64,000 nt of DNA from Trebouxia sp. TZW2008 (taxonomy: Eukaryota > Chlorophyta > Trebouxiophyceae > Trebouxiales > Trebouxiaceae). The number at the start of each line of letters is the position of its first letter. Position 1 is the first letter of the stretch. The notes under the pieces were generated by a model. It was given only the letters and a program-made list of their open reading frames with translations, did no database searches and was not told where the DNA came from. Of this stretch, positions 1-64,000 are shown piece after piece. The position numbers and the translations under genes are program-made. Where the stretch lies: assembly GCA_002118135.1 (NCBI GenBank), contig BDIU01000192.1, positions 248,001 to 312,000 on the forward strand. Reading direction: 5' to 3'.

Positions 1-3000
1 ATGCTATGGAAGTCCAGGAGGCCTTTGTCAAGATCAGGGAACAGGTCTGTGCCAGTCCACTCAACAACCCTGAAAATTTAATGACAGTCAATATGCGTGA
101 CACATTGATGCTGCAGTAATGCTAAGCACATCCTGCCTAGAGTCAATATTGACTGTCACTTCTTGGTCCGGGTCGTGCTTGACAATGGGTACCGTTGCTT
201 ACAACACTGAATTGTCAAGAACAGTTTGACAAGGCCACCAGCAAATTACACTTCGAAACATCTTTCTTATGTCCGCCTTGGCCAGCTCCACCAACCTGGA
301 CTACTTCTTGCCTGAACATCAGGCTGACCTCTTGCGCCTGAAGGGTCAATCCCTACACGCTTTGGGCAAATGCAACCAGGCCAACAACAACTACAGTACT
401 GCCCTGACAGTCTGTGATTGACTGCAACGCAGGCGAGAGCACACCTTCATGCCCCTGGCGAGCTGGCCCTAGGACTGCACCTAGTCAATTCCACCAACCT
501 GGACTACTTCCAGCCGCAACACCAGGCTGAGCTCTTCCGCCTGAAGGGCCAATTCCTACAAGCGCTGGGGGAACGTGACCAGGCCAACAGCAACTACAGC
601 ACTGCATTGACAGTGTGGGACCAGTTACCAGATGGGTGGTTGTCCTGGGGCGCTCACTGTGATGAGATGTATGAGAGCAGCGGCAACCATGCCTGGCTTG
701 AGTATGCCGTGTCGTGCTACCTGCAAGCTGTGAAGCATGGGAGCTGTGCTGGGCGTACCATGCTGCCCCGCGTGCTGCACCTGCTGAGCTTTGAAAACGA
801 GGCTGGGGCTGTTGGCAGAGCCCTGGACCGCAAGCTCAATGAGGTCACTGTCTCTGCGGCTTGTGATGCTGTCTGCTGGCTGACTTGTTCCTTCAAAAGT
901 CGGCCGTCACTACTATCAGGGCTCTGACTTTTGGGCTTGCATAAAGCATGGCAGCACGTGGCAATTTTGGCAGAGCCTGTTTGCGTCTGGGTAACTCTGT
1001 CATAGATTGCATGAACGTCATAGGCGTATGGTCATTGCCAGCATGTGGCAGATACCCTCAAACTTGTTGGCTGGCCCAAGCATGTTAATTCGTCCCTCTG
1101 CTTTTCTGGATGTCCTTCTGTGAAGTGCTTTCTTCAAACAAAACTGCAGATGGTGTGTCATTTCATTGGAATTTTTGCTCAGCTGCTGATGTGGGTGTGG
1201 GCGTCACAGCTGCTGATGAGCTTGCAAAATTTGTGCTAATGAGCCTTGCACGTCAACCTGGGGAGCTCACACCAGGAACACTCGTTTCGTCACCTGCACC
1301 ACAGTCAACCCTCCAATCAACAAGCCTCTGCAAGGTTGATTGATGCGTTGGTTTGTGTGCAGGTGCTGCTATTGATGTTGCTGGTGTGAGCTCCTCAGTT
1401 TGAGCTCACCTGCGACGCGACTCCCTTTCCTATTGTGCTCTGTCACTCATACTGCTTCACCTGTCACATTCAATCTCATGCCAAGGTCCTGCTGACCCAT
1501 ATCACCTGCAGTGGCCTGTTGGAGCCTTGCAGATGATTGTTGTTTGATGGGAGACTGCTGCACAGGTGCCGCTGTGGGTGTGAAGGGTGTATGCGCCCCA
1601 GCTGTTGATGTGTCTGCAGGCCTCTGTTGATGGGCCTTACATGCGTTTCTTGCTCGTGAAGTTGATCTGTCGAGTTGGATCTTGCTCAGATGGCCCCTTG
1701 AGTACCTTTTGTTGTGGGCTTTCCAGCTTTTACTAGGTGTCAAGACACTTAAGGGTTCACCCTTGCGCAGGTGCCGCTGTGGGTGTGGCTGATGTGGGCG
1801 CCGCAGCTGCTGATGAGCCTGCAGAGGGGAGAGGGTCCTCACGCTAAGGCCCTGCTCACTCAGATTGCCCAGGCCTTCCCGCAGGCCATCTACTACTCCC
1901 TGCGCACTATGGTGCTCTGTCTGCGGGAGTTTGCCTTCAAGGTAGTCCAGGTGGGTGTTGTTTCCTGGTGTTTATTGTGCTGTATGTGGTCATCATTAGG
2001 TACATGCTATGCAGTGTCGTCATTTCTCATTGTGTTGAACAGCTATACACGTCTGTACAACACCATTGGGGTTCACATGGTCATCATTCATCACTAGCAC
2101 CATGTGCACACCGTCTGATGAGGTTTCAAATGCATGCCATTTGCATGCAGAAGCGCCAAGAGCTTCCAGACAACACGTCCAGACCCATCTCGTACTGCTG
2201 CTGTCTCTGAAGGCAATTTCTTTTGTACGTGACTACAGGAGAAACGAGCAGCTGCAGCCAAGCTTCAGCAAAAGCAGCAACCCCCAGGGGTTCCCAACTC
2301 CACCTCCGCCTCAGGAGGAGGCGCACCCTCCCCTGCACCTGACACCACCCCCCAAGGGCCTCCTGACAGGGCCAGCAGCGATGCAGTCGCTGTGGCAGCT
2401 GCTGCCATGGCACGCACTAAGTCACAAGGTGCTCAGCACAGCTGCACAATAAAGCTGTTTGAAACTGCTGATCATAATGTATAAAAAGCGCTGACAGCAT
2501 GGCGGCTTGCAGCACTTCTTGTTTAGCTTGTGCTGCTGTAGAGCAAACTCACTGTTGCATTGGATTTGGCGTAGACAATTTGATCTTCTGTTGCATACAT
2601 GTCGCAACATCACTGGGAAGCATGTCTTTTCTGCTTAGACGACGTTGACAGAATTGCTCTGCTGTGGTTCAAGTGACATGTGCACCATCAAATTCCAAGG
2701 CTGTCACAACTTGAATTACTTTGTCTATTCCATGGCTTCATTCAATGTCACGTGATGCTGATTGGCACAAGCACCGCCCTGGGCCTCAATGCATCCTTCA
2801 GCTGTCCTGTTGAGGTGACTAAATGAGACATGCATCATCCTTGCAGGCACAGAGACAACGCTTGGGCCTAGCAGCAGCATAGGGCCAGATGTGGCAGCAG
2901 CAAAAACTGGGACAACAGCAGGCTGCAATGCATGTTTATGTCCTCAGCTGAGCTTTTGCACCTCTTTGCAGGCACAGAGACAACACTTGGGCCCAGCAGC

Positions 3001-6000
3001 AGCAAAGAGCCAGATGTGGCAGCAGCAAAAGCTGGGACAACAGCAGGCTGCAATGCATGTTCATGTCCTCAGCTGAGCTTTTGCGCCTCTTTGCAGGCAC
3101 CAGCAGCAGCAAAGAGCCAGATGTGGCAGCAGCAAAAGCTGGGACAACAGCAGGCTGCAATGCATGTTTATGTCCTCAGCTGAGCTTTTGAACCACTTTG
3201 CAGGCACAGAGACAACACTTGGGCCCAGCAGCAGCAAAGTGCCGCAGGATGCAGCAGCAGCAAAAGCTGAGACAACAGCAGGCAGCAGTGCCCCACAGCA
3301 GCGCATAGAGAAGCCTCATGAGGTCATCTCATTCGAGGCCGCCAAGGAGGTATGTTGCTCAGTTTGTGTTGCATGCATGATTGTACTCGTGGATGTTGTG
3401 ATCCTGTAGATAATTGTTGTCTAACTTTCAAGGTTTGCTCCACAAGGCAGACCTTGCATGTAGTGTTGTGCAAAGATTGTGGTCCCAATAACATGGCAAT
3501 GATGCTCCAATTCTGCAGTAATCCTGTGCTTGTGCACACGCCTGCACCGCCCAAAGCGCTGCAAACAGTCATGCGCCCCAAGGTTGATGCACATTGTCTT
3601 GAGCTTGGAGTCGGGCAGAAACTCAGCAGCCTGGTTCACATACGAAAGTGTAACTGCAGCTGATGGAGTTCTTGAGGAGCAAACACCCAACCATGGCCCA
3701 AGTGCTGGAAGTGGTCCTGGGTGACATCGGCTCAAGATTCGTTCCAAAGCCCGAGGAGCGCCTGCTAGCAGTTGTGCATGCTCTGCTGCTCAGATGCTAC
3801 AAACTGCCCTTCAGTAATGCTGCTGAAGTGCCCTCCTCCCTGAAGCGCGAGCTGCAAGGCGTTTGCAAGGCTTGCTTCTCTAGTGACTCTGCCAACCGCC
3901 ACAGCCGGAGTACCAAAGCAGCGGTGGCCACCATTGCTGACTACAAGGACCGGTTCATCCATGACTTGAATCCTGATGCCCCAGGATTTCCATCAACCCT
4001 TGGGGATCTAGCCAGCAAACTCAAGGTAAGATGACATACACACTCAAAAGCCTTGTGGCATGCTATGAGGAGATTCCCATCGAACTCATCAAAATTGCAA
4101 TGATTGCACCTCATCTGAGTCTGAAGAATCAGTTTGGTGAGCTACTTGAAGACAGGTGACCTGCTTTGACCATCTCCCTGGTTCACATTCTACATCATTG
4201 AGACTGTCGTTTTTGGGAATCATGCAGGCGCGTGTGTTGCTGACTTGCCGGGCTCCAGGCTCATTCAGTGAGCATGCACATGAGCTATCATTGGCATGGA
4301 GTTTGCTGCTGCAGGGTCGGCGTTGGGTGCAGTGCATTTACAGCACATACGCTGTTTTGTCATTGCCTTGTATCATGTCACAAGCCATGGAACCACTGTG
4401 TGATGGTGTGTGGTGGTGTGCAGGCATGGAAGGATTTGCTGCAGAACACAGTAGAGGACAGCATGCCAGCTGCCCTCTCTCTGGAGCAGGAATCGCCTGT
4501 CCTGCATGTAAGCCCACGTCACTGTCTTCTATTCTTGCTGCATCTTTGCACCTTGTACCATCTTGTCAGTGCGTCTGTGCCCACTTCAGCACTTTGCGTA
4601 ATCCAGATGCTCTGTTGACAGGCACCAAGACAATTGAATGCATGCTCACTTTAGTTTAGGTGTCTGTTCTGTATTGATTCATTGTTGACATTGTCTGTGG
4701 GACCCGCTGTTGGGTCCCAGGACAGCAAAATCAATTGATTGATTCATTCATAGTTTTTCAGTGCATGCAAGCATCCTCCTCCATCTGGTCTCCCTGCATC
4801 ATGTTTTGAGTGCATGTCAGCAGACCCTTCATCATATTGTCATCTTGCACCATCTTGTCTTTTTGCTCTGCCTTTTCAGCTGATTTCAAGATGGGTTGTG
4901 TTGCTTTGCAGGAGCAGAGCCTGGTGGACATTGAGATGCCTGGGCAGTATATGAATGGTGAAGAGCCCTCTCAAGACGGCATTGTGTTCCTAGAGGGCAT
5001 CAGCTCAAATGTGCATGTAAGTCCATTCTTTAGTCATTTGCATGGCCACATCATGAGGCTGAACTTCGTGTAGCTCAGCAGTTGGCATAATCTTCTTGGG
5101 ACAGCATCAGCTCAAATGTGCTGTTAGCCAAGTCACAAGTCATATGTCAGGGCAGGACTTCGGCTTTGGCAGGAACATGGCACTGAATTTGCATTGTTTA
5201 TGATGCTTGGTATGCAGAGGCCTGGGCAGCTGGTGTTCTTGCATTTGACAAGCTGTGAATTGCGTCCTGAGTGGTTGCAGTGCATGTGTGTAGGCAGCAT
5301 GCTCAGGCTCCTGCAACTCCACCCAACATGAGACGTGGGCCTGCAGGTGGTGAGACGGCATTGCAGGCGGTTGGGCTTCATAGGCACAGACGGACGCACC
5401 CGCTTGTAGTGCATACAGAGCAGCACTGGCATGGCTCCATTGGCAGTGCTGAGGAGCACATGATGCACAAATATCCATTCCTGAACACTCTGCTTCCTGC
5501 AGGTGGTGAGACGGCATTGCAGCAGCTACAGGCGGCTGGGCTTCATAGGCACAGACGGACGGACTCGCCACTTCATAGTGCAGACGGGGCAGCACTGGCA
5601 TGGCTCTACAGGAAGTGCTGAAGAGCGCATGATGCAGCTGCTTCGTCTCATCAACGGACTGCTGGAGAAGCATCCTGAGTCCCGCAGCCGCAAACTGGCT
5701 GCTCATGCTCCCATCATTGTGCCAGTCTACTCCCAGGTGGGTTTGCTTGTATGTTTGTACTTGACAACAAGTTGGCATGATGCAACTATTGTGTCGCATC
5801 AAGGTACTTCTATGAAAACACCCTGAGTCTTGCGGCCGCAAACTGGCTGCACATGCTCCCATCATTGTGCCAGTCTACTCCCAGGTGTGCCTGTTCTTCA
5901 TACGCATCCAGGATCCTTTTTGTACAATGCTGTTGCGGGAGACAAGTAGAATGATCAAGTATGCTCCTAGGTATGCCTGCTTTCTTTTTGTGCATGACAC

Positions 6001-9000
6001 GAAATTAGAATGATGCAGCTGCTGCGTTTCATCAACTGCCTGCTGCAGAAGCATCCTGAGTCTCGCAGCCGCAAGCTGGCTGCATATGCCCCCATCATTG
6101 TGCCTGTCTACTCCCAGGCATGCTTGAAATTCATGTGCATGCAAAGTAGCTTTTCTGAAAGACAAAAGATGACTGCCAGTGCTCCAGGCATGTCACAATC
6201 TAGGCAAGCTTTTGCAAGAACATCACAAAGTGCATGTTTGCAAGCTGGCGCATGCTCCCATCATACACGTTCACCCAGGTATGGCTGTGCTTTGTGTCAC
6301 TACTACAAGTTGTGATTCTGGATGGGCAAGTAGATGTGCCACAAATTTGTAGTTGGCTGGATCAGTCTGCTGGAATGGGAACTTTTGCCAGTGGGCCTCA
6401 GCTCTTGTCCATCATAAACAAGCATACAAGTCACAGTAACATGAGCTTTGGATGCACATTGACACTGTCCTGTGTCTGCTGACACTTGAGCTGATTATAA
6501 CGTGTAAGCTTTTGATGCTGCGAATACATATGGTTGAGGACAATGGCAGCTGCTGCATCTCAACAAGATGCTTTGTGCTAGTATTGCGCAACTCTCATAC
6601 TGCGGCTGCAGACTTATTGAGCCGTTTCAAGCCTTGAGTGCAGATTTTGCTTGGACTCTGAATTTGATCTCTAGCTGTGAGGCTCAACAGACATCAGTCA
6701 GCTCTCATATAGACCGGCCTTCCAACTTTGAGCCACTGCTGCTGCAGATACGTCTGGTTGAGGAGGACACCAGCTACTGCACGTATGGCGAGGCTTATGA
6801 GGTGAACTGTGCACGGTACGGACGGCAACCTGACCAGCCCATTGTGCAGTTCAAGAAGCGCATCTGTGATGCCCAAGGCCAGTTGGTGTCTGACCCCAAG
6901 GGCGAGCTGCGCCAGCAGGTAGCTGCTGCTGCGCATTGTTCTACCAGAATGACATATGACCAAGAAATGACAGAAAAGATCCAAAAGTCTGCATGGGTAC
7001 ACTTCAGTGCAAGTTGAAGCAAGACTCCCAATGCGCAAAGCTACCTTTATCTATCTTCATCTTACCAAGTCAAGATTCGGCCTACCTTTGTTGCACTGCG
7101 TGAAGATGTGCTTGGGCAAACCTGTGTGTGATGCTGAATAATGATCTTCAATGTGCGTATTCATACTGTGCACAGCACTAGTGATGGACTGCTTATTAGG
7201 CAGCCTAGGGTCATCATCTGTTGCGGTAGCGGGTGATTAGTTGTAGCTAAAGCAATGCAATCACTGTTTGTCAGCTAAGCATACATCATTGATCTGCTAT
7301 GCAAAGCTCTGACAGGGTATGATTGATCTCTGCAGGCGTATAGAGACATACAGACCAGTATAGTGACAGAGAATGTGTTCAGTCAGTACATGTACGATCC
7401 TGCTCACATGTAGCCACCTTACTGATACCATGCCGCTGCATCTATGCAGGCGTATAGAGACATAGAGACCAGTATAGTAACAGAAAACATGTTCAGTCAG
7501 TACATGTACAAAACGCTGCCCACCTCACTGATAGCACATGTTTGCATCTATGCAGGCATATAGAGACATAGAGACCAGTATAGTAACAGAGACTGCTTTC
7601 AGTCAGTATATGTACAAAACTCTGCCCACCTATAGTCATTTCACTGATAACACAGGTTTGCATATGTGCAGGCGTATAGAGACATAGAGACCAGTATAGT
7701 GACAGAGAACGTGTTCAGTCAGTACATGTACAAAACCCTGCCCACCTGTAGCCACCTCTGGAATTTCAAGAAACAGTTCTGCTCCCAGCTTGCGCTCAGC
7801 GGGCTGTTGTGCCACGTCATGCTGATTGGAGGTCGCATACCAGCCAAGATCTGCTTTGCGCGCAACAGCGGCAAGACATTCCAGACTGACTTCTTCCCAT
7901 CTTATGACCCAGCGTAAGTCACTGTTGCCTAACCCTTGTGCTCACTCTTGTTCTGATGCTGGCTCATGTTGCTTGAACTGCTTGCTCAGTGTTCTTGGCT
8001 TTTGCATACTTCTTGGCCTGCTGAAGGTTGCATGATGTATGCTTGATCTGAGGCTGCTAAAGTGCTGACACTGCCGCTGCATGTTGACTTTGTGGAGTTC
8101 TGCCTTGAGTGACTGGATGATGGGCTCTGGGCTTTTGCCTGTCCAACAGCTGGGTCAGGCGCACACATGACATGATCTGCTTAATGAGGCCAGGCACTCA
8201 GAACACCTGAGGATCAGCCTGTACAACACATTGTCACAGGCACATGCTGTCAGTTTGATAGCTTCCAATCCTGCTAGACTGACAATGAATTTTGCTGTAT
8301 TTGTCATGGCCTAGTTGACTCTTGCAAGCAAAGCAAGTAAGTCACGCTGTAGACCTGCTCCCTTGGTGCCTGTAGCCGCCACAGACAACATACTAGTCAA
8401 CAGATCAATCACCAAGCTAATCCTCCTCTGTTTCTCATCTTGGCTCAAATAAAGGGTTTTGTCGTGAGCCATGTGCCGGCGCATCGCACACTCAGCTCAA
8501 TGAAATGTTGGTCAAAAGACTGTTGCTCAGACTGCTGCAAGGTGTGCAGGGGGGTGTTGGAACGTAGTGAGCCGGTGCCCTTCAGGCTGACACGCAACTT
8601 GCAGACCTTCTTCACGCCCTTTGGGGTAGAGGGGGTCTTCATCACCGCCATGGCAGTTGCAGCCCAGGTAATTAAAGCTTTGCATCTCATGTTGTGTTTT
8701 TTGTGCAAATCAACACAGGACAAAATCTAATCAGGGAGATATGCATTGCTTTATGGCTGAGAGTTCTGTACGGTTTTTTTGGTGGAGGGGCTCTGCATCA
8801 CCGCCACGGCAGTTGCAGCCCAGGTGAGTCAGGCTCTGCGTTTGTTTTACTCTATGTGTAACAATTCTCCGTGGCAGTTGCAGCCGAGGTAATTGAGGCT
8901 TTGCATCTTATGTTGTGGTTTTTGGGCACATCAAAACAGGAACAAAACCTAGTCAGGGAGATATGCATTGCTCAATGGCTGACTTGTCTGCATGTCCTTT

Positions 9001-10357
9001 GGGGTGGAGGGGCTCTCCGTCACTACTATGGCAGTTGCAGCCCAGGTGATTTTTGCAGCTTTGTCTTGTTGGTGACCTCAACAGCAGCACATGCATATAG
9101 TGCATCACAGGTTCTTTGCCAACATCCTGAATATGTTCTTCACACATACTTGACAAGCAACACAAATGTCACAAACTGCTCTGAGCGTCAACGCCTTGTC
9201 TGCAGATAGGTGTAGAAATACATCTGTTGCAAGCTGCTTTGCTTGGCTTGCAGGCTAGCATAGAGCACCACAGTGACAATGCCCACACAGACTGCAGACA
9301 TCAGAGATGCATCTGAACACGCCATCAATTTGACTTGAAGCCACTTCAAAATCAATGTCTGTTCTGAATTGCAGGCCAGCATAGCGCACCACAGTGGCAT
9401 TGCTCACATCCTGAGCATGTTCTTTTGGAATGGTGTGATAGCATGCATCAAGTGGGTGTATCCATGCTTTACCGCAGGCTGCTCAGCTGTTAAGCTCTGT
9501 CTTGGTCTTGCAGGCCAGCATAGTGCATGACAGCGGCATCGCCGACCACCACCTGAGCAACTCGCTTTGTTGCTATACATTCTTTCTTGGTTGCGCAGGC
9601 TAGCATAGCACATCACAGTGGCATTGCCCATATTCTGAGTATGTTCTTCCGGGATGATGTGATGGCCTGGAACAAGAGGGTGCAAGGCAAGGCCCCCAAC
9701 ACCCACCCCCTCAAGCCCTCCCAGCTTAAGCCCCTGGTCCAGAGGAATGTCAAAGATTGTATAGAGCGCCTCCAGCTGGTGAGCACATTCAATCATGACA
9801 ACACATCATGCACTTGAGCTTGGGTGCGGTGTGCCTGTATATTTCACACAATGCACAAGCAATGACCGCGAGGTTGAGTGAGTCTGCATTGCACTTGTCT
9901 CTGAGGGCATATATGTCAAGTTGATTGAGTCTGCATTGCACTTCACCCTGGTTGAGAACATCATCTGCAGCACTACAGTGTCTGCTGCATATGTCACAAT
10001 GCGCGCTTCAGTGCTGTCTATCATCTTGAGTCATGACCAGAGTTCAACTTTCTGCACAGGAAAATAACCTAATACGCAGTCATGCATTGTGCTGCTGCGC
10101 ACTGTTTGGCTCTGATCAGCGTGCTGCAGCTGAAGCTGCATGAATCAAGGAAAACGTCCAGTCACCAGTGACCAGCAATAGATTGATAATCACAGACCAC
10201 ACAAGGGGTTTCTTGATTGATACAGGTGGCACCAAGCGTGACAGTTGATGGGCAGCAGGGTCTAGGGGTGCAGCGAGGCGCCGTTAGCTTAGTTGAAGCA
10301 GCTTTGAACCCCAGAAACCTCTGTAGAATGGATCCGACTTGGCATCCATGGTTCTGA
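1..10357 (+). CDS. TRA1: TRA1/TRRAP co-activator scaffold, C-terminal part (5' end outside window)
   Basis: TRA1/TRRAP is the giant PIKK-family pseudokinase that recruits SAGA and NuA4/TIP60 histone acetyltransferases to activators in the nucleus. Exons with agreeing phases: 1-44, 463-843, 1771-1941, 2239-2428, 3204-3349, 3660-4025, 4424-4507, 4912-5016, 5503-5736, 6748-6918, 7672-7913, 8550-8667, 9599-9778, 10226-10357, about 854 codons. The FAT region shows NSTNLDYF, WLEYAVSC and VPLWVWLMWAPQLL. The pseudokinase region shows IRLVEEDTSY, SHLWNFKKQF, VPFRLTRNLQTFFTPFG and MFFRDDVMAW. The protein ends in the diagnostic FATC tail NLCRMDPTWHPWF followed by TGA at 10355-10357. A low-complexity linker rich in Gln, Ala and Pro (2239-3349) separates FAT from the kinase-like half. 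Nine of the exons carry decayed tandem copies in flanking introns. The family assignment is secure; single splice sites (for example the first acceptor at 462) are inferred. Confidence 0.93.
282..418 (+). repeat. Echo of TRA1 FAT exon (acceptor side)
   Basis: About 137 bp closely matching exon positions 484-621 lies some 200 bp upstream of the working exon. It still reads as a diverged copy of the STNLDYF stretch but ends in a stop and has no use in the reconstructed message. It sits in the intron upstream of the exon it copies. Confidence 0.8.
1178..1622 (+). repeat. Three decayed echoes of TRA1 exon 1771-1941
   Basis: Copies near 1178-1235, 1360-1390 and 1561-1622 repeat the start of the working exon (the segment beginning caggtgccgctgtgggtg and running to the ctgatgagcctgcag part). 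The copies are progressively damaged, and only the 3'-most copy at 1771 keeps the full reading frame and donor. Confidence 0.7.
2846..3200 (+). repeat. Tandem echoes of TRA1 exon 3204-3349, period about 125 bp
   Basis: The acceptor and first part of the exon (caggcacagagacaacac) recur at 2846, 2970 and, truncated, 3096 before the intact copy at 3201. The shared unit includes about 60 bp of intron (tgtcctcagctgagctttt). The translation of these repeats gives Gln/Ala-rich open frames that are by-products. Confidence 0.85.
4665..4760 (+). repeat. Hairpin-bearing short element in TRA1 intron
   Basis: Contains an inverted repeat gggaccc-gctgtt-gggtccc (4699-4719) and a tail attgattgattcattcat. 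The sequence ttgattcatt also occurs just before the hairpin (4674), as a target-site-like direct repeat. Probably a small non-autonomous element. Confidence 0.45.
5342..6285 (+). repeat. Echoes on both sides of TRA1 exon 5503-5736
   Basis: Upstream, 5342-5463 copies the acceptor and 5' half of the exon. Downstream, 5824-5890, 6011-6120 and 6238-6285 copy the 3' half plus the donor (the tactcccaggt end). The acceptor-type copy lies only upstream and the donor-type copies only downstream. A short acceptor-type echo of the next exon lies at 6519-6556. Confidence 0.85.
7334..7671 (+). repeat. Three acceptor-side echoes of TRA1 exon 7672-7913
   Basis: The first roughly 65-80 nt of the exon plus about 30 nt of intron recur at about 7334, 7447 and 7554, and then in the intact copy at 7670. 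The copies are very similar to each other (gcgtatagagacatagagac), so the array looks recent. Each keeps a plausible AG acceptor. Confidence 0.9.
8770..9050 (+). repeat. Three donor-side echoes of TRA1 exon 8550-8667
   Basis: Segments at 8770-8825, 8868-8895 and 8994-9050 copy the last 25-50 nt of the exon (ggcagttgcagcccag) together with the donor and the start of the intron. All lie downstream of the working exon. Confidence 0.82.
9250..9545 (+). repeat. Three acceptor-side echoes of TRA1 exon 9599-9778
   Basis: Segments at about 9250-9280, 9373-9432 and 9510-9545 copy the acceptor and first 30-60 nt of the exon (caggccagcatagcgcacc). All lie upstream of the intact copy at 9596. A separate short direct repeat (gagtctgcattgcacttc) lies at 9880-9945 in the following intron. 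Confidence 0.85.
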
Positions 10358-10858
10358 CAGTGTTGTTGTGATGTTACCAACAGCCCGTATGTGGTGTCCG
10401 TCGCTGTTTGTCCTCTTATTTGTGAGTGACTATTTCGTGTTGCTGGCGTGTTTGCTTCTTGTTTTGACACTGTGTATTGCACACTGACACTTGAGCGTAT
10501 GTGTCGCGTCAACAACAATATGTGACTGCACTAGATTGTTGTAGGCATATACGAGATCCGCCTCTTTTGAGTACATACATGTAAGAAATGCTCAAAATTC
10601 CATAATATAGCAGGCTTATCACGATAATATCATACTATATAATATAATATTATGAAGGCTGCCAGCGCAACGTGCATTGATCTGTTGCCCTGTGCATGCA
10701 TGCATGGATGTCCAGGATCCAGACCATTCTGTGCAAAGCAGCTCTGAGAAGGCCCAGTGCTGCATGTCAAAACGCGCTCAAGTTGTTGCGAAGAATCCAA
10801 AACAAGGCAAACTGATTCGCTGATTTGTCTGAAGAATCCTGGCTGGAGCGGCTGTGTA
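10358..10858. other. Convergent intergenic region TRA1 / methyltransferase
   Basis: Both neighbouring genes end here, so this should hold two 3' UTRs. It contains an AT-rich stretch at 10600-10660 and a TGTAA (the common green-algal polyadenylation signal) near 10580. I see no exon-like coding signal. Confidence 0.5.
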
Positions 10859-27435: not shown

Positions 27436-33221
<5,786 letters not shown>

Positions 33222-37862: not shown

Positions 37863-37882
37863 ATGCAAGCATATCATGGTCA

Positions 37883-51800: not shown

Positions 51801-54800
51801 GCGGCGCCCTAGGCCAGCTTGCAACAGGTCAGCTTGCTTGAATAATAGATGCTGCGTCACCTATATCTGGCATGTCTGCTGGAGCGTGTGGTGACTAACG
51901 TTGCTTTAGGGTGGTAGAGCCCCAACCCGCTCTGATTGTCTGCATTTAAATAGTGTGGACTGCTGTTGCAAACCAATCCTGTGAGCAGGCAGGCTCGCTC
52001 AAGGTCACAAACTGCTTGTCTCATCCAAAAATATAGCAAAGAATCCATATCCGAGTAGAATGAAGACATCTCTTGTGTGCTGATTCTCTGTTCATGTCTG
52101 AGCTCAGCAGTCTGCTGTGAAGAAAGCTTGCAGTGCTAGGCATCAAGAAGATTCTGCAGTTCCTTAATGAACTCTTACCTACATGCAATTTGAAAGGAAT
52201 GGGGTTTGCTTTTGAAAGCATACTTACTATGATCTGTCTGGTTCAGGCTTATTTGCTGCCGAGGTGCCTTCTCGACATCACAGGCTGGTGGTCTCAGCCC
52301 TGCTGGAAACCTACGTACGCTTCAGCAAGTAAGCTACTGTCTTTGCACTGTAGCTATCGCCTGGATAAGTGCCGAGTGTCAAGTGGAGTTGCTTAGTTGA
52401 CTGCATCACTGCCCAAGTACTGCACTACCAACAGTGGTGCGGCACCAACTGATCCTGCAGCAACCAAGTTTGAGCAAATATCCCATTTGTTACTATTGTA
52501 AGCGTATGTGTGTCAGTGTCTGTCGGCTGCTTTCATGCTCAATTGCCGCTTCCACAATGTAAATGTAGCTCGCTTTGTTCATTGTAACGCTTTGGCCTGC
52601 AATTGTTTGTTTGTGGGTGCAGGGTGCTGCAGCAAAATCAGGATTACATCCCCAATGTGTTGGCAGTCTTCCTTGGCAACTCAGGCATGGGTCATCCAGA
52701 TGAGGTGGGACAGTGTCTGTCTGGAATTGTAACTATGTTCCCAACAGTGTCTACCATAGTGTCCAGTGATTGTACTGCATGACTGCATGCGGTGTCAATT
52801 AGGGCATGCTACCTATTTGGCCGCCTGGCAACAGCCCTACCGCAGAACATCTTCCCATTCCTGCCATTCTTTCAAAACAGTGGTTAATCACCATTGGGCA
52901 TGTGTGTCATGACTTGCAGGCAGTTGCGATTAGAGCATGCTACCTTTTCAGCCGCCTGGCAAAAGCCCTACGGCAGAACATCCGCCCTTTCCTGCGAGAG
53001 GTGCTGCACAGCATTTCAGGTCACCTTGTGCATATTGCCACCCGACCCCCTGTTGAGGGGGGGCCGCCCCCAAACAAGGCAGGGGGGCCTGGTGGGGCTA
53101 AGGTCACAACCATGGGTGCCTTCTTGCCAGCCACTGATGACAGGTAGGCTGTCAATTTTGATTATCACTGCTTTAGTTGCAATGAATGCATCCTTCCGAC
53201 TTCTCAGGTCATCTTGTGCACATTGCAACCCACCCCCCTGTCGAGGGAGGGCACCCCCAACCAAAGCAGGGGGGCCTGGCGGGGCCAAGGTCACAGCCAT
53301 GGGAGCCTTCTTACCAGCTACCAATGACAGGTGGGCTGGAACTTCTTGTTGTTCTGTCGCCACCAACAGTGAACTCATTACCATAATGCACACTAGTCCT
53401 TTTGCAAATGCTATCTGGGTTTGTTGCTGAGTCAAGACAGCTTGGTCTCTGGTTTACCTCATGTCTGGTGTTTAGCATGGCAATTTGTATATCAGTCCTA
53501 ACCTCTTTCTCTCGTCAAGCTTGCACCAATCAACTTGCGTGCATGACACTCTAGCATGTGACAAGTGGAAAACAAAAGTGTCATGCCTGCAGGCTGTATG
53601 CATATGAGGGAGTCGGGGTCTTGCTGGGTCAAGAAGATCTACCACCAGAAGAGCAGCATGCCTATGTTGCTGCTCTTCTTCAACCCCTCATTCATCAGGT
53701 GTGTCATACAGCTGTCATCACATTTCCACATTGCAGCATATGTGCATCCTCAATCACTGCAACGACAAAGGCAAGTGCATGCCTAAATTGCTGCTCTTGA
53801 TCAGCCCCTCATTCACCAGGTGGACCTGTCCGTTCATGATTGCACCATTTTTGCAGCATCAGCTGTGCATGCTTCATGATACCTGAGATTGCTTGTCAAC
53901 AATGATGAGTATCCAATGGAACTAGAGACAAGCCTGGCAGCAGTCGCTAGATGGGCTGCAGGGGATGGCCCTGCCCCTAGCCTGCTCATCCAGCATCAAA
54001 TTTTGAGATGATCATGAATGATGTGATGAACAAGGTGATGGTGAGGTCATGCATTTGATTTGCAGATAGAGACAACTTTGACAGCAGCAGCCAGCAGCAA
54101 TGGGGCTGCAGGGGGCAGCCCTGCCCCTAGCCTGCTCATTCAACAAGCCTTGGAGGCAATTGCGCGCATCAGCAAGGGTTTCAATGCCAATCTGTGTGTC
54201 CGTGTGAGGCCCAAAATAGGTGGGTCATTCTTCTTCCTTGTGCATCAGCAAGGGCTTCAATGTTGATATGTGTGTCCGTGTGGGCCCCAAGATCACTAGG
54301 ATGCTGTCCTCACTTGCTCATCAACGCATATCTCAACAAGTAATTTCAACAATATGCGAACCCAATTTTGAGATGTCCACATTTGTAGGATCATTGAGCC
54401 TCGTGAGGACTTTTTTTGCACTCACACGCTGCCTTTGAGCATCCGTCACTTCTTGAGGCATGTGAGCAGTAGCACTGGTCTGCTGTCTTGACAAAAGAAA
54501 CTAAAGAACCATACAGTCTGGCAGTCATAGTGGGAATCTCTGTTTCAAACTACAGTTCCAGATGTCCCTCAATTGCAAACCTCAAGTGTGTTTGAAGACT
54601 TTATGCCTGATGGCGTACAACTTTCTGGTTCTGTGCAGTATTTGACAGCCTTGATGCTGCGCCTGAAAGCTGCCGTCAATGTACTGCAGGCTCGTTGTTC
54701 ATCACTGCAGTGGAAGCTGCGCTGCACCTGCCTCAGCAATTGACCACCAACAAGCAGCTGCGCGCCAGATTCATCTCATTTCTGCATAGAATGGTACGCC

Positions 54801-57800
54801 TTTTCCATCAATCAAAGTGTGCTGTTAAAGCTACTCTGGAGTTAGTTTAAAATGCTGCCATACCTGCCTGTGTGTTCATGATGCATTAGATTTTGGAGCG
54901 CGACGGTCCATGATTATCATCAGATCTGACACATGCATTCACACATGCATTCTTGAATGAATTCTCTAGCCAAGATGCATGCTGTTATGCCTGCATACGC
55001 TTGGCACCATTTTGCGGTGGCTTGGTCAGTGATCTCAAGGAGCGTTGATGGGATTTGACCCATGTATGTCACCAGTGAATCACCATACGTTATACTCAAT
55101 ACCCAATACGTAATATGCAATGCGTAGTATTTGAGAGTCTGGATCACTGAGATGCAGTGCAATATTACAAAATACGCAATATGTCGGCGCCAATACGGAA
55201 TACTCAATACGCAAGTATTTGAGAGTATCAATCATCGAAATGGAGAGTATGGTGATTCACTGTATGTCATGCAAGCTGCCTGGGTTGTCATGCGTGCTAC
55301 AGTTCCTGCCTGCACACTGACTCCCATTTTGCGCTGACTTGGCATACTGATTCTCATTTTGCGCTGACTTGGCAAATGACTACAAAGGTTGCTACAATCC
55401 ATCTATTATGGTGGATGTGTCATGCAAGCCATGCGGGAGTGGGAGACATGCTATAGCTCCTGCCTGCATACCATACACCATTCCATGACTGGAACATTGC
55501 ACACACAGCAGTTGCTTCAGCTTGTCTGAGCTCACACAGATCAGTCAGCCTGTTTTACATGATAAGTAATTGTGTTCTATGTGGCTCACACTTATAGGGC
55601 GTTTGCAGGTGGAGTGCTTGGCAAATAGAGTACTGAATATCTGCCCACAGCGCTGCATTCATTGATTGCCTTTAGTTATTGGGCAAAACTGCTGTGTCGC
55701 TGACTCAAATCTGCTGTGTTGATCCAGGTGGAGTGCCTGGCAAACAGAGTGCTGCCATATCTGCCTACAGCGCTGCAGTTTCTAATGCACGCAAGCGTGG
55801 CTTGTCAGGACATGTGTGACATGTCGGCTTTGCTCAATCAAATTATGCAGCATGAAAATGCTTCATTGTCTGATGCAAGTCGTTCTTTGTCATTTAACAC
55901 ATCCTATGATGATGCAGGTGGAGTGCCTGGCAAACAGAGTGCTGCCATATCTGCCTAAGCGCTGCAGTTTCTGATGCATGCAAGCGCGGCTTGTCAGGAC
56001 ATGTGTGACATGTCGGCGCTGCTCAATCAAATTATGCAGCACGAAAATGCCTCATTGTCTGATGCAAGTCGTTCCTTGTCATTTAACACATCCTGTGATG
56101 ATGCAGGTGGAGTGCCTGGCAAACAGAGTGCTGCCGTATCTGCCGACAGCGCTGCAGTTCCTGATGCATGCAAGTGCGGATTGTCAGGACATGTGTGATG
56201 TGCTGGCGCTGCTCAATCAACTCATGCTACGATACAAAGGCGCGCTTGATAGCCTCCTAAAAGAGGTATGGGAGTATGCTGCAGCAGTCATCTGCTTTTT
56301 CACGCACCTAGCAGAACCATAGAACTTCTTTGGCAAGCATGTAAATTGCGATGAATGAAATGGTGATCAAACCATTTGGATATCGAAAAAGATGTAGATT
56401 GTGCTGGTGCAACAGAGCTGATGCAGCTTAAGCTCTGAAAGCAGTTTAGTTGCAAGCGACTTGTACAAAGACGCAATTTCATTGCAATGCCTGGTGTTGC
56501 TTGCTTGTTGTCTTGAAGCAAGCTATTGAGTCTTGACCAACAACAGCTTGCAGACTGTATGTTCTGCATACATGGTACATTGACAGGCCCCGTCAGAAGA
56601 AACAATGCTGTTGGGGTTCTGACGCTGTGTTGGCATTCTGTGTGCAGGCTTTGCCAGTGTGCATGTCGCGGATCCATGGCATGCTGAGTGTTGATTGGGA
56701 TTGGACGGGTCGCACTTCCCAGCCTGCCACTGCTGCAGCATCCATCTCGGGTATGCGACAAATTTGCCTGCATGCTGTCTTACTGTAGACTTTAAGGTGC
56801 TCAGGATCATTTGAGCCCAGTGCGCTCAACCCTTATCAATACATGATGCTCAAGTGCGTCCTTGGACCCCTTTCCTCACCTGCACCCCCACCCCACCAAC
56901 TCACCCACTCCACACATGACTGCACAGTTCTTTGACCACGACATAAGCCAGCAAAATGTTGAAACCACTCTTTCAGTCAAAGCCGAGCGGCTGCTGACTG
57001 CAGCTGATGCAGCTTCGTTGCTTATGTTTGCAATCAGTCATTGCTCAGTCGCCTGCTCTATTGCAAGCGCAATTGCCCTGCAAAGCTCTGTCGAACAACT
57101 TCAGAGAGTTTTTGTATCACTCTCAGGCCCAATGCACAACATCTGTATTTTTAAAATCAAAAGCGTTACAAAATTGTGCAAACAAACATCTGAAATCCAA
57201 CGTTTACCGACGATCTTGTTGCTTAGCACAGCTACCAGATTGCTTCTATGGAAATCATGTCTGTTCCTGCTCCTATAGGGACCGAAAATGGCTAGACGCC
57301 TGATTTGGCAACCAAGGTTAATTTGCTTCTTTTTCAGAAACAAACTTGACGCCTGAACTGGACTCGATTGTCTGTTGACTTTTCTTCACGGACAGAAAAC
57401 GATTTCAGCGGTGTTTTTACCCTTTCTGTAGGGACAGAAAATGGCTTGACGCCGGCATCCAGCGGACTCGAAGACCTGAGGGAGAAAGGGGAGCTGCAGA
57501 AAGCATATTACGGCTTCTTACATGCCATTACCAGCAGTAACTTGACCCATATTCTTCTGCAAACGCCCTCGGAAACCCTACACCAAGCCCTGACTGCCCT
57601 TGTGGCTGGAGGCGTTGGTCATATTGACCCTGGGACCAGGAAAACGTGTTTGCAAGTGGGCAACCTTCTTCTTCTGGCTCTTCTTCTGCTTTGCTGTTGT
57701 CAAAATCTGCATAGCAAGGTTGGGTCACTGTAGCATGCACGTTATCAAGTCTGCCCTGTGATCTGCTGCATTTCCTGCATGAGTTCAATAAGTGCAGACC

Positions 57801-59603
57801 ATGACCATTCTTGATGGCTTGCAAATGCTGAGCTGAGCCTGCTGTGCTGTGCTGTGCTGTGCTGTGCTGTGCTGTGCTGTGCTGTGCTGTGCTGTGCTGT
57901 GCTGTGCTGTGCTGTGCTGTGCTGTGCTTGCTATGATATGCCTGCTACTTTCCATCCAGTTGAGTAGGACAAGATTGCAGGACCCAAACTGGTGACAGGG
58001 CAGCTATGTGCAATCTCTTTTGTACACAGGTTCCGCATACTTGGCTGCCCTTGCACTGCAGCAGTGACAGCAGCCAACCGAGAATGGCCACTGCATCATG
58101 CATGCTATCAAGCTCTAATTTTGTGCTGTTACAAAGGCTGAATGAGCAAATGATTGCTACCTGTGCTGTGCTGCAAGGTAGTCAGCCAGCACACAAATTT
58201 CAGCCTTCCTTGTGCTGTTCTGTTCCCTGATGAACAAGGCTTTTGTCAGACAGTCCGAGCATGACACCATGCAAAGCGGTTTGATCTACTGCATGTGCCT
58301 TCAAAACTGCACCATCAACCAAAATACTGTTATGTAGGTGCTGCATGCACTGCTGCCCGTGCTATGCAGGAGTGACAGCAGCCAACAGATGCCAGGAACA
58401 CACTAGACAAAGTCTCTTGATCTACCCCTTGAACTGTGCCATGCCGAACTCTCTATGTGACTGAAGGCTCCTCAATGCTCCTCATGTTTGCAGGTGCTAC
58501 ATGCGCTGTTGCCCGTGCTGTGTAGCAGTGACAGCAGCCAACAGATGCCAGGAGCGCGGCAGTTCGCCTTGGACCAGATTGGCGGGCGTGTCTGTCTACA
58601 AGGCGTTTTCCAGGTGCTGGCTGAGTACACAGTCATGTTGTCTGCATTGTTCACTGGTGTTGACGCCGTCATTCTGTCTGTCGGTCTGTCAGTAGAACAA
58701 GTCTGTCTGTAGATCCTGTACTTCTGTTGCTAATGTGTGTAGTCAGTCACTACTGCATGTTACTTATCAAACAATGATTCCTATCATGGAGACTATATGG
58801 TGTTCATGAGTTGGATACAAACATCAAGCTATATATTACAAAACATATGTAGACATACATAGTGTCCATGATTCATACCTCTGCAGGGCGGTCTTGATGT
58901 GCGGGATGCTGCAAGCAGCACCTTCCTTACAGAAGTGGCGTCAAGCCTCAAGGATCTGCACAAGCTATGCGGCACTGACATGACAAGCTACCTGTCAAGC
59001 TCTGGCCTGCCACCCACAAAGCTACCACAACATGTCCAGGTGTGCCTTGCGTTCCATTCAACCTGGACCTTGCTGAACAAAGCAGACACACATGTTGGAC
59101 TTTGCTACTCTGGACTGTTGCCAATTGTCTTCAGGAATTGCAAAGACAGCTATGGTGCCTCATGTTTCAGCATTTTCTTTTTGCATGGTCTTATGTGCTT
59201 GCAGCAGGGGCTGCAATCAAATGTCTCAGTCAGCCGCATATGCCATTGCCTTTGCTACTCTTGCGTGAATGTTGATCAGAAAAAGTAAATTTCCATGGCG
59301 TTGTGTTCACACTGATTTCCTAGTGAATGGGGTGCAATTTTTGCAACTTTATATATGTTGAATCCTTAATGTCAAAATTTCAACTATTTCAAATTCTCCG
59401 CAGTTCAGCGCAAGAAAAAGAACTGTTTTGATTCCTGAGTAGACGAATGGCCTTGCGATTGACTTATGTGTGAGGTGCAGGAGGAGCTGCTGCACCACAT
59501 ACAGCACTCAGAGCCAACAGCTCTCAAGGCTTTCTTGCGGACAGCGCTGCAACAACAAGCTGGCATTTCTGCTTCCAGTAAGCGCGCCAGCAAGCACAGT
59601 TGA
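45876..59603 (+). CDS. XPOT: Exportin-T (tRNA exportin, PAUSED/XPOT orthologue)
   Basis: Exportin-T carries mature tRNA out of the nucleus with Ran-GTP. Exons: 45876-45947, 46026-46151, 46232-46279, 46717-46770, 47638-47774, 48789-48983, 49346-49584, 49910-50037, 50343-50474, 50895-51158, 51728-51827, 52247-52328, 52623-52704, 52920-53143, 53593-53698, 54066-54219, 54639-54793, 56107-56265, 56648-56750, 57432-57655, 58494-58613, 58887-59039, 59481-59603; about 1059 codons. Landmarks: start MADDFERAVLVSFDQTGSA, FWCLQALHE, APFIRNKAAQ, EYPEKWPSFWKDLL, RYINWIDVGLVVNNRFIPLL, ACYLFSRLAKALRQN, LANRVLPYLPTALQFL and a final LKAFLRTALQQQ. The protein is HEAT-repeat helical throughout. The join between exons 3 and 4 is shorter than in other exportins, so one small exon may be missed there. 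Insertions rich in Gly and Pro (GGPPPNKAGGPGG) interrupt exon 14. Echoes flank at least nine exons. Confidence 0.9.
46440..46700 (+). repeat. Four related units in XPOT intron 3, about 75 bp apart
   Basis: Units beginning gcattgctgt or gcattactgt followed by ctgggtaa-gaacac recur at about 46467, 46535, 46607 and 46675. The last unit runs into the acceptor of exon 4, so these are acceptor-side echoes made mainly of intron. Confidence 0.7.
47478..48120 (+). repeat. Echoes on both sides of XPOT exon 5
   Basis: 47478-47560 copies the 5' part of the exon (gagtatcctgagaagtggcc) upstream. 47875-47940 and 48025-48120 copy the 3' part (catcagcctggacatgtcaaggt) downstream with the donor. Confidence 0.88.
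48590..48735 (+). repeat. Acceptor-side echo of XPOT exon 6
   Basis: A near-complete copy of the first about 140 nt of exon 48789-48983 with high identity (gggagacctgcctcactga). It is open for 47 codons but ends in a stop (AACTGTTGA) and lacks the RYINWID end of the exon. Confidence 0.9.
51175..51250 (+). repeat. Heptamer microsatellite (TGATTGC)n
   Basis: Six or more units of tgattgc, then degenerate tgaatgc units, beginning about 20 bp after the donor of XPOT exon 10. Confidence 0.95.
51350..51600 (+). repeat. Dispersed repeat R1, copy 3
   Basis: About 250 bp in XPOT intron 10. It matches 11085-11325 through the blocks cagtgtatgtttgggca, aactgtgtacaag, gaactggttggagacagttg, gttgggcctgctgagcctgc and a tail of ATGAAATGAATGAA. 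No coding capacity is seen. Confidence 0.75.
52795..54300 (+). repeat. Echoes of XPOT exons 14, 15 and 16
   Basis: 52800-52870 copies the start of exon 14 (acceptor side), and 53205-53335 copies its end with donor (gggggcctggcggggcc). 53770-53822 copies the end of exon 15 with donor. 53926-54000 copies the start of exon 16 (ggccctgcccctagcctg), and 54235-54300 copies its end (gggcttcaatgttgatatg). Each copy is on the side predicted by the polarity rule. Confidence 0.83.
55080..55240. repeat. Local repeat of ATACGCAATA-like motifs
   Basis: Short motifs such as aatacgtaatatgc, aatacgcaatatg and aatactcaatacgc recur several times within XPOT intron 17, with tttgagagt twice. A small AT-rich tandem-like patch with no obvious function. 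Confidence 0.6.
55605..56085 (+). repeat. Three acceptor-side echoes of XPOT exon 18, period about 190 bp
   Basis: Copies at 55605-55665, 55727-55890 and 55917-56085 precede the intact exon at 56107. The two nearer copies are almost identical to the exon for about 115 nt. The copy at 55917 lacks bases so that it reads CTGCCTAAG, giving a stop. Each copy ends without the exon's donor. Confidence 0.92.
57270..57431 (+). repeat. Acceptor-side echoes of XPOT exon 20
   Basis: ctatagggaccgaaaatggc at 57274 and cacggacagaaaacgatttc at 57388 precede the working ctgtagggacagaaaatggc at 57426. The exon starts at 57432. Confidence 0.8.
57841..57926 (+). repeat. Pentanucleotide microsatellite (GCTGT)17
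   Basis: Seventeen perfect GCTGT units in XPOT intron 20. The same pentamer occurs in PRMT1 intron 7 and in reverse near 40816. Confidence 0.98.
58025..58400 (+). repeat. Two acceptor-side echoes of XPOT exon 21
   Basis: 58027-58075 and 58338-58400 repeat the start of exon 58494-58613 (gcagtgacagcagccaac) at decreasing distance from the working exon. Confidence 0.8.
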
Positions 59604-62062: not shown

Positions 62063-64000
62063 ATGGCGCTTGGCCTGACTGAGTGGGTCGACTCGAAGCA
62101 AGCGTGTCTGATAGCAGCGGGCGTCTTCGGACTGTGGAGGCTTGGAAACTTTGTCAGGTGAGGCTCTGCCCTGGAATGGCATTTGAGACAAGAGTTGTGT
62201 CCAGGCCAGCTGTATGTCTCAGGGCTGATGCTGACATGAGCCTGTGGACCAAGCAAGAGCCCCCAGCGAACGCTTTTGAGGACCAGGTCGTCTGGATCAC
62301 AGGAGCAAGTCAGGTACACGAGTGTGAACATGTCTGCAAGGGCAGTCCTTCTGTTTCATCAGACCGAGGACTGATGCCTGTAACACTAGCTCAGCGTGAC
62401 ATCAACATCATTGTGGCATGCCAAACTGTGCCTGACATGCATGTCAACCTGAAGCAGCTGATGCATGCACCTCACAGGACCCAGTGCAGGTTTTACCACT
62501 TTGAGTGAGCAGGCAGCCAGTCATCGTCAAATGACTTTCCATTGATGACATCAAAGGGAAGACCAACAACCTAGACCAACAAACCACAACCAGCAACCAA
62601 CAGCCAGCAACCAACAATCAACAAACGAATCACAACAAAAAACCAGATAATAAGTAGCAAAAGTGCTGCTCAGGGGCTGGGAGAGGAGTTGGCGCTGTAC
62701 TTTGCTGCACATGGAGCGCGCCTCATACTGTCCTCAAGAAAGGAAGACCAGCTTCAGGTGAGTTCACATGAAGAGCAGGCTCTGATGTAGTTGTGAAAAC
62801 CCTGCCGAAAAACAACCAAAAAAGAAAGAAACAAAGGTTCATGCAATCAACTGTCATGAAGTGAGCCCCTACAAGCAGAAGCCGCCCAGGAAAGCCTGTA
62901 CGTATTCATTCATTTTCATTTCACATGCATTCTAGGCAGGCTCAGCAGGCCCAACTAGGTACGTACAGGTGCAATCAACTGTCTCCAACCAATTCTGTCT
63001 TGTGCTAATCTGAACCATTTAAACTGACAGTGGGGGGTGGAGAGACTGTTGTACACTGTACGTATGCAAAGCATCACGGCTGGTTTCTTGACAGCGTGCA
63101 TGGTTGCAGAGGGTGAGAAGAAGATGTCTTGGGAAGCATGCCCCTGAGGGCATCAAGGTTCTGCCCTTTGACCTGATTGGGTCACCAGAAGAGCTTCAGC
63201 AAGCGGCATCTGCTGCTGTCAATGCATTCTCAGATGCGCCTTTAACTCATCTCATACACAATGCAGGTTTGCTCCATACATGTCACAAACTTTCATTGCC
63301 ATATTTTGGCACATGCAATCCGACTTGCTGTATGACTGAAGCATGTAAATGCTCCATCCTGCATGTAGCATGCATCACTGCATCACAATGCAGATGCACC
63401 TGTGGATGCCTCTTGACTCATGTAGTACATATTGCAGATTCACCTTTGTCAATGCATTCCCAGATGCCCCTTTGACTCATCTCATACACAATGCAGGTTT
63501 GGTCAGTTCTAATGGGATTTACCACATCGATGATCTCAGTTACTGTTCTCCTCCAGGGTACACTATGAAACGTCTCGACATTGACAATACATGTGACATA
63601 CATCACTGACGCATCTGAGGATGCCCTTGAATTTATGCAGTACATATTGCAAGTCTGCTGTTGTCAATGCATTCCCAGATGCCCCTTTGACTCATCTCAT
63701 ACACAATGCAGGTTTTGTCAGTTCTTATAAAATTTACCACATCGATGATCTCAGTTACTGTTTTCCTCCAGGGTACACTATGAAACGTCTCGACATTGAC
63801 AATACATGTGACATACATCACTGACGCATCTGAGGATGCCCTTGAATTTATGTAGTATATATTGCAAGTCTGCTGTTGTCAATGCATTTCCAGACGACCC
63901 CTTGACTCTTCTCATACACAGCGCAGGTCGCTTTCAGAATTGATGTGCATGTCCTGCTTCTGCCAGCAGCCTTACTTGTGCCAATCACCACCACGTTTCT
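62063..64000 (+). CDS. Short-chain dehydrogenase/reductase, DHRS7-like (3' end outside window)
   Basis: Exons: 62063-62157, 62223-62313, 62674-62757, 63110-63266, then beyond the window; 142 complete codons shown. An N-terminal hydrophobic stretch (ACLIAAGVFGLWRLG) may anchor it in the ER membrane. The Rossmann cofactor motif is TGASQGLG (residues 58-65), followed by ELALYFAAHGARLILSSRK, where the basic SRK fits NADP preference. Exon 4 gives KVLPFDLIGSPEEL and then LTHLIHNAG, the SDR NNAG-type motif. The catalytic Ser, Tyr and Lys lie beyond the window, so activity cannot be judged. The closest family by memory is DHRS7-type reductases. Exon 4 has three donor-side echoes. Confidence 0.85.
62905..63050 (-). 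repeat. Dispersed repeat R1, copy 4 (reverse orientation)
   Basis: Reverse-strand copy in dehydrogenase intron 3. Read on the minus strand, it shows gcctgctgagcctgcctag followed by the ATGAATGA-rich tail (plus strand: cattcattttcattt). The block aattggttggagacagttga is also present on the minus strand. Confidence 0.72.
63440..63930 (+). repeat. Three donor-side echoes of dehydrogenase exon 4, period 215 bp
   Basis: The exon end (gtcaatgcattcccagatgc ... acacaatgcaggt) recurs at about 63449, 63664 and 63876. The first two units are nearly identical over about 215 bp, including intron, so this duplication is recent. The third is more diverged. Confidence 0.93.

Follow-up and report, generated by a model that had tools for sequence, protein, structure and literature searches.

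Echoes of exon edges in the introns of a Trebouxia alga: strict polarity, splice-site limits and a possible route of intron lengthening

Where does the sequence that lengthens an intron come from, and can its source still be recognized? The question is raised by a stretch of 64,000 nucleotides from Trebouxia sp. TZW2008 (the window), which covers bases 248001–312000 of contig C184 (524,039 bases; GenBank BDIU01000192.1) in an assembly of 68.5 Mb and 527 contigs. Trebouxia is a lichen alga. A first-pass annotation of the window proposed that the edges of exons in several genes, among them TRA1, EXO70 and XPOT (exportin-T), recur as copies in the flanking introns. We call these copies echoes, an exon's 5' edge its head and its 3' edge its tail. 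To our knowledge, the lengthening of introns without transposons is poorly known; at this locus the source of the added intron sequence is traceable, namely the neighbouring exon.

The window was analysed together with 200 kb of DNA upstream of it and with four further contigs, sampled in eight stretches of 10 kb. A self-trained gene finder written for this analysis, for which the first 304 kb served as training DNA, returned 33 genes with 434 exons and 401 introns on those 304 kb (median intron length 358 bases; acceptor TGCAG with G as the first exon base). Many of its exons were correct, yet some echo copies had been called as exons, and the exons of TRA1 (the window up to 10354 and upstream DNA), XPOT and EXO70 (16992–27029) were therefore set by spliced alignment of the proteins of other algae to the DNA. 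XPOT is 79% identical to its counterpart in Trebouxia sp. C0006, and TRA1, along its best aligned part (37% of the query), reaches 91% identity with the protein of that strain. The alignment of TRA1 with the C0006 protein gave 63 rows, of which the row at -26531..-26460 (50% identity) was dropped before the polarity count because the alignments of the other two homologues lacked it. The checked set comprised 62 exons of TRA1, 23 of XPOT and 13 of EXO70, with 95 introns in total. GC–AG introns are not rare in these homology-defined genes (3/62 in TRA1, a count that includes the later dropped row, and 2/12 in EXO70).

The sequence contains 398 local direct repeats; one shuffle contained 7, and local inverted repeats numbered 78. 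Polarity was measured by aligning a 60-base probe from each exon edge with the introns on either side (score threshold 42). In the three checked genes, heads had a copy in the upstream intron in 30 of 95 cases and in the downstream intron in 0 of 92; tails had a copy in the downstream intron in 19 of 95 cases and in the upstream intron in 0 of 92. Pooled, 49 copies lay on the right side and none on the wrong side, with echoes at 49 of 190 edges, or about a quarter. The claim of the first-pass annotation that copies of acceptor and head lie only upstream, and copies of tail and donor only downstream, thus holds throughout the checked exons. The same probes gave 0/362 matches in second-neighbour introns and 0/1755 in unrelated introns, which served as the null. 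Probes from the middle of exons matched in 8 of 41 cases upstream and 2 of 42 downstream. Lowering the threshold produced wrong-side matches at 1 of 184 edges (a tail; score 26–34) and 3 of 184 (score 24), and a separate repeat-based test, with the row at -26531..-26460 still included, placed 28 junctions on the right side and 1 on the wrong side of 192. The excess of acceptor edges over donor edges (30 to 19) has a p value of 0.10. We infer that the strict polarity is a consequence of tandem copying at exon edges and requires no separate law, since a misplaced head or tail copy would break the messenger RNA (mRNA), whereas a correctly placed one would be spliced out.

The same geometry would yield strict polarity if local tandem duplications arose at random, those crossing an exon edge survived with an intact mRNA, and their intron parts and the echo then decayed neutrally. 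We consider this explanation unlikely, and the position of the repeats is the first result that speaks against it. Among local-repeat clusters in TRA1, XPOT and EXO70, 51 of 53 include at least 20 coding bases and two are confined to introns. Random placement of duplications of the observed sizes gave 101,555 intron-only events against 76,770 that crossed one edge; with decay and detection modelled under five settings, the expected exon-anchored share is 43–49%, for which a result of 51/53 has a probability below 1e-13. Over the 304 kb with gene-finder labels, 92 clusters were exon-anchored, 17 had both copies called coding, 13 were intron-only and 12 intergenic; with these labels, missed exons may be hidden among the intron-only or intergenic clusters, and false exons among the 17. 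Among the genic clusters, 109 of 122 were exon-anchored (the 17 both-coding clusters included) and 13 of 122 intron-only.

The second result concerns the intron flank. Simulated junction-spanning duplications, subjected to neutral decay and to the same detection, kept a homologous intron flank in 82%, 75% and 78% of cases (three age ranges), whereas homology ran clearly past the junction into the intron (extension score above 21) in 8 of the 49 observed echoes. The deficit persists among echoes with at least 90% exon identity, where a flank was found in 5/16 against the 91–95% expected. In flank-less head copies, identity is 75–83% over exon positions +1 to +45 and 94% at the AG, and falls to 38% at -6 and to 27–30% from -16 to -60 (baseline 25%); flank-less donor-side copies show a similar pattern by position. 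Echoes in gene models outside the three genes had a scoring flank in 4 of 35 cases, and those on contigs C5 and C240 in 0 of 4. Fast decay of intron sequence is an unlikely cause of the missing flanks, because copies within one array are 80% identical in their exon-derived parts and 74% identical in their spacers, a comparison that is dominated by the nine-copy array of EXO70 and favours the exon part, through which the copies were found. A cruder random-sequence simulation (no exchange) gave a flank in 5/11 and 18/27 cases, still above the observed share, and intron-only repeats in 37 and 120 runs against exon-anchored repeats in 11 and 27.

The copies are therefore exon-specific and mostly end at the splice site, as 51 of 53 clusters are anchored in exons and a flank accompanies only 8 of 49 echoes. 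Plain local tandem duplication was rejected by simulation, on both anchoring and flanks, as a sufficient cause of the whole pattern. Accordingly, the explanation offered by the first-pass annotation, tandem duplication combined with selection to keep the frame intact, accounts for the polarity and fails on the other two counts, and its description of the unit as spanning the junction, usually over 75–215 bp, has to be corrected: the unit does not usually reach far into the intron. Random duplication does have support in individual cases. The TRA1 exons at -2341 and -1333 and the XPOT exon at 47638 are clear junction-spanning examples with related flanks; exon and intron parts are both related in TRA1 -2341, XPOT 47638 and XPOT 48789. 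The spacers within an array are related to one another, and spacers are slightly similar to the flank of the echo (mean z 0.84, standard error 0.34) and not to the continuation of the exon (0.09, standard error 0.33); the latter value led us to reject the spacer as a remodelled exon continuation. A minority of echoes probably began as junction-spanning duplications.

Once formed, echoes appear to decay like dead sequence. The 1305 aligned echo codons contain 548 differences, of which 281 are synonymous, and eight stops in seven echoes, with about 13 stops expected; 15 of the 20 indels are not multiples of three and shift the frame. Hypermutation of repeats was rejected, as C>T plus G>A changes (183) showed no bias over the reverse changes (165). 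Of 30 head copies, 28 retain the acceptor AG, and 14 of 19 tail copies retain a donor GT or GC. The mean acceptor score of the 24 flank-less head copies is 4.85, compared with 4.28 expected under neutral decay and -0.1 for random intron AGs, and the donor score of flank-less tail copies has a mean of 1.25 and a median of 4.1 against a neutral expectation of 4.04. Neither these scores nor the retention of AG and GT gave anything decisive in favour of selection to keep or to kill decoy sites. Among intron-internal, acceptor-like AGs scoring at least 7, 29 of 46 precede a copy of the downstream exon's head, which supports the suggestion that echoes litter introns with decoy splice sites. Echoes supply most of the strongest decoy acceptors of these introns and offer a natural test set for splice-site choice.

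These measurements also bear on the possibility that echoes function as alternative exons or alternative splice sites and are maintained by selection, to which we give a small chance. The intact AGs, the acceptor scores well above those of random intron AGs and a mild excess of synonymous changes are what this explanation would predict, and a few copies remain open, for example XPOT 53204–53330 (13 synonymous changes and four that are not). The homologue P0005 even aligned to 53297–53330 of this copy instead of to the exon's own end. Against it stand the stops and frameshifts, an acceptor strength close to its neutral expectation and donors below theirs; moreover, the copies are partial exons, and the spliced alignments used each exon once.

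At a score of 36, the 190 checked edges carry one copy in 30 cases, two in 12, three in nine, five in one and nine in one, which matches the earlier count of one to nine copies per edge. The best copy lies 76–256 bases from its own junction in 40 of 49 echoes. Arrays keep a nearly constant period: successive spacings in the nine-copy array of EXO70 are 161, 159, 161, 161, 157, 146, 145, 168 and 139 bases, and the spacers are again related to one another. The copies are associated with longer introns. Introns with an echo (46 of 95) have a median length of 656 bases, compared with 336 for those without (p 2.9e-9), and the spans from junction to outermost copy make up 15,430 of 50,387 intron bases. 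When the echo span is subtracted, the median of the echo-bearing introns is 358 bases; the agreement with 336 is suggestive and not proof, because subtracting a span shortens any intron. The first-pass idea that the copies explain how these introns grew is supported by these values.

The explanation that we prefer builds on the observed polarity, exon anchoring, splice-site stop in most copies, decay, constant-period arrays and longer introns. It holds that echo arrays are made by duplication of an exon margin bounded by the splice site, acquire their polarity through survival of the mRNA and then decay, and we regard it as plausible, falling just short of probable. The first event would duplicate an exon margin of 42–157 bases, ending at the splice site or a few bases past it, on the intron side. 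The new copy would usually lie at a distance of 76–256 bases, and the members of the pair would mostly be separated by unrelated sequence. Only copies that leave the working exon in possession of its own splice site would survive, which puts heads upstream and tails downstream, as expected from geometry and mRNA integrity. The extra copy would be spliced away with the intron and decay; some pairs would expand into constant-period arrays that include the spacer, and the intron would lengthen by the span of the copies. Formation would most likely proceed by break-and-fill tandem duplication, with one of the two breaks at or next to the splice site and the second within the exon; the intervening spacer would be filler or captured sequence. 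Our reason for preferring break-and-fill with one end at the splice site is that it agrees with the polarity, with spacers of unrelated sequence and with copies that stop at that site. The spacers did not behave as a repeat family: when two spacers and one flank were searched genome-wide (best candidates scored), each matched only itself among the matches listed, and other spacers, compared with the 304 kb, gave few matches, mostly local or short.

Several points weigh against this reading. Neither a break nor an origin of the filler nor an agent directing the process was seen, and the model does not account for the choice of splice sites; that the two spacers and the flank were each listed once in the genome fits filler and does not show it. 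The intron flank is related but more diverged in 14 of 49 echoes at z above 3, and the 31 cases with low extension have a mean flank z of 0.71 (standard error 0.25), six of them above 2; an older junction-spanning origin fits those echoes better. The synonymous share of 51% (281/548) is a mild excess over the 42–45% expected for dead copies, for which the model gives no reason. Very young echoes are scarce (1/49 at 96% identity or more), with no fresh event caught. Finally, echoes are few outside contig C184, with eight on the right side and two on the wrong side at 215 edges of contigs C5, C120 and C240, a count that leaves out stretch L024 of contig C60.

The exon anchoring could instead result from differential persistence, if duplications arose everywhere and only exon-anchored ones lasted: a recombination event removing one would join dead exon sequence to the gene and be selected against, and repeated exchange would renew its exon part. 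This we consider improbable. In its favour, 48 of the 49 echoes differ from their exon by one or more amino-acid changes, stops or indels that would impair an exon fused with them, and arrays show changes in copy number. In simulations with eight sets of exchange parameters, however, intron-only repeats always outnumbered exon-anchored ones (in one set by 106 to 22 of 200 runs), and flank homology was present in most echoes of each set. Gene conversion tracts were likewise rejected, because mismatches are not clustered as such tracts would require (mean z 0.17, standard error 0.18). Selection-blocked contraction with repeated exchange thus found no support in eight settings with exchange and two without.

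It is similarly doubtful that splice products were pasted into introns through an RNA template. Such pasting would account for the copying of mostly exon sequence with the splice site as its boundary, and an AG does occur near the inner end of tail copies in 8 of 12 cases against 3.9 expected; there is no corresponding excess of GT at the inner end of head copies (5/18, with 5.8 expected), and RNA-templated copies would be expected on the far side of short exons as well, where none was seen in the checked genes. An assembly artefact, in which a mixture of strains or overlapping contig ends were set side by side, would yield exon-bounded copies with unrelated introns, and the window does contain a 90-base N gap, but this is very improbable given stops and frameshifts unlike those of a second strain's working exon, a TRA1 exon (5503–5736) identical to C0006 at 78/78 residues while its two compared echoes carry five and four non-synonymous changes, regular arrays of up to nine copies, and recurrence of the pattern on separate contigs.

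How far does the exon-margin process extend beyond the three checked genes? In a first pass over raw gene models (802 junctions), non-coding copies lay on the right side in 71 cases and on the wrong side in 21. Outside the three genes, with 46 exons that resemble a neighbouring exon set aside, the count was 31 right and one wrong of 424 edges. Raw models on C184 (genes with at least four predicted exons), taken without the neighbour-resemblance step, gave 89 right and 15 wrong at 669 edges. Six of these 15 wrong-side matches fall in the raw models of TRA1 and EXO70, and none is left in the homology-checked exons of both genes; the other nine, and the two elsewhere, are in uncurated gene models. 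Echoes are present on C184, C5 and C240, three of the four contigs sampled, and C120 had none in 40 edges. Their frequency is uneven, from 49/190 edges in the checked genes to a few per cent in the stretches outside C184. The first 10 kb of C5 (G000 C5:1-10000; L023) hold compact genes with 27 short introns totalling 4886 bases and no echo at 54 edges, and the habit therefore differs between genes. The genome-wide comparison of exon edges with their own introns that the first-pass annotation envisaged was run on C184 and the sampled contigs; it returned the right-side excess, and the supposed genome-wide habit is present on three contigs but sparse away from C184. A more tentative proposition than the mechanism itself is that Trebouxia, or at any rate this lineage, possesses or once possessed a process of duplication directed at exon edges, which adds short copies bounded by splice sites on the intron side and so lets introns grow outward from their exons.

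Within the window, echoes were found at 24 checked edges and also in PRMT1 and an SDR dehydrogenase, whose exons are those of the gene finder. This agrees with the more than twenty edges claimed by the first-pass annotation; of the six genes it listed, a separate methyltransferase was not identified. The echoes of TRA1 are on the plus strand. The head of exon 1771–1950 has a copy at 1566–1619 in the upstream intron (distance 205), and the head of exon 3204–3349 has three copies with spacers at 2847–3203 (starts near 2847, 2972 and 3079). Exon 5503–5736 is echoed at both edges, with a head copy at 5347–5467 (80% identical), a tail copy that includes the donor at 5775–5884 (83%) and a second tail copy at 6010–6117 (90%); a search of the whole genome (68.5 Mb, best candidates scored) listed, besides the exon itself, no more than these three nearby copies, each on a permitted side. 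Three copies of the head of exon 7672–7913 occupy 7336–7671 (starts near 7336, 7450 and 7556), copies of the tail of exon 8550–8667 occupy 8765–9045 (mapped donors 8823, 8888 and 9045), and the head of exon 9599–9778 has a copy at 9375–9458 and weaker ones starting near 9091 and 9254.

EXO70 is on the minus strand. Its head copies comprise two at 17905–18140 (exon 17697–17852), five at 19960–20692 with a spacing of 132–136 bases or double that (exon 19772–19880), and single copies at 21355–21419 (exon 21124–21316) and 21965–22031 (exon 21679–21856). Tail copies lie at 23201–23519 (two, the nearest 95–96% identical; exon 23573–23700) and 23951–24510 (three; exon 24645–24802). The nine-copy array, spaced at 139–168 bases, occupies 24880–26226 and derives from the head of the same exon 24645–24802.

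In PRMT1 (plus strand, gene-finder exons), the tail of exon 28592–28702 has a copy at 28793–28979 (mapped donor 28830) and the head of the exon at 30479 has two copies at 30080–30361. At 30479–30773 the tail of an exon and its downstream copy share one open frame and match the same stretch of the solved chain 8z2z, so that either could serve as the exon end.

Heads of XPOT exons (plus strand) are copied at 46456–46665 (three old copies spaced by 70; exon 46666–46770), 47481–47568 (exon 47638–47774, the intron part being related too and more diverged), 48592–48733 (exon 48789–48983), 52789–52864 (exon 52920–53143), 55604–56106 (three copies starting near 55609, 55728 and 55918; exon 56107–56265) and 58338–58397 (exon 58494–58613, with an older copy starting near 58030). 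Copies of tails lie at 48026–48116 (exon 47638–47774), 53204–53330 (exon 52920–53143), 53777–53822 (exon 53593–53698) and 54242–54295 (exon 54066–54219). The copy at 53204–53330 was partly called an exon by the gene finder; the open stretch 53204–53338, with its 13 synonymous and four non-synonymous changes, is the best candidate for an echo in use. Downstream copies of the tail of the SDR dehydrogenase exon 63110–63266, a gene-finder exon, lie at 63447–63928 (plus strand).

The window also holds repeats and frames of other kinds. A dispersed repeat of about 105–250 bases (11072–11324, 13099–13208, 51350–51599 and 62904–63059), 75–81% identical and present in both orientations, is not local, unlike the echoes. 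Between TRA1 and EXO70 lies a 16-base minisatellite (12209–12517), part of a 2 kb region that holds four local-repeat clusters, and near-pure five-base repeats occur at 32662–32734 (CTGTG, about 15 copies) and 57840–57932 (TGCTG, about 19 copies). An open frame with an adenylate/guanylate cyclase domain (PF00211) at 37200–37862 was joined to PRMT1 by the gene finder; a C2H2 zinc-finger frame (38271–39335) and a gene with a Dioxygenase_C domain (41188–43674) are both on the minus strand.

No description of exon-edge echoes as a habit of intron growth was found among the literature matches listed, at the level of titles and the starts of abstracts and with subscription journals thinly covered. 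The nearest described case that we found is that of potato RdRp, where a single tandem duplication over an intron–exon boundary copied the acceptor and the exon head and created an intron (PMC4974935). The junction-crossing tandem copy of acceptor and head is common to both systems; the echoes differ in that there are dozens of them, which apparently count as intron sequence, add length to introns already present and for the most part have no intron side. In Rogers-type intron gain, an exon segment with AGGT is duplicated (PMC3443670). There too a short tandem duplication of exon sequence leaves an extra copy that becomes intron, but by its geometry the new intron would start with sequence of the downstream exon and end with sequence of the upstream exon, whereas echoes lie on the side of their own junction in introns that already exist. 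The AGGT arrangement was not found here, the best copies lying near their own junctions (40/49, as above); two further copies lie toward the far end of a TRA1 intron, one in the intron that follows exon -31995 and one in that preceding exon -20336. Introners, families of similar elements across genes that change intron content in diverse eukaryotes (PMC9860276), resemble the echoes in changing intron content en masse and differ in forming families; the two echo spacers searched genome-wide were each listed once. The chemistry of formation that we propose has a counterpart in the fill-in of break ends, which gives small tandem duplications in human and mouse cells, in an abstract that makes no link to exon edges or splice sites (PMC8355091). 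Because standard tandem duplication predicts neither the targeting of exon edges nor the stop at the splice site, these two features suggest a mutational process linked with splice sites or exon boundaries. If this is true, it would represent a directional lengthening of introns, bounded by the splice site and distinct from both transposons and random tandem repeats.

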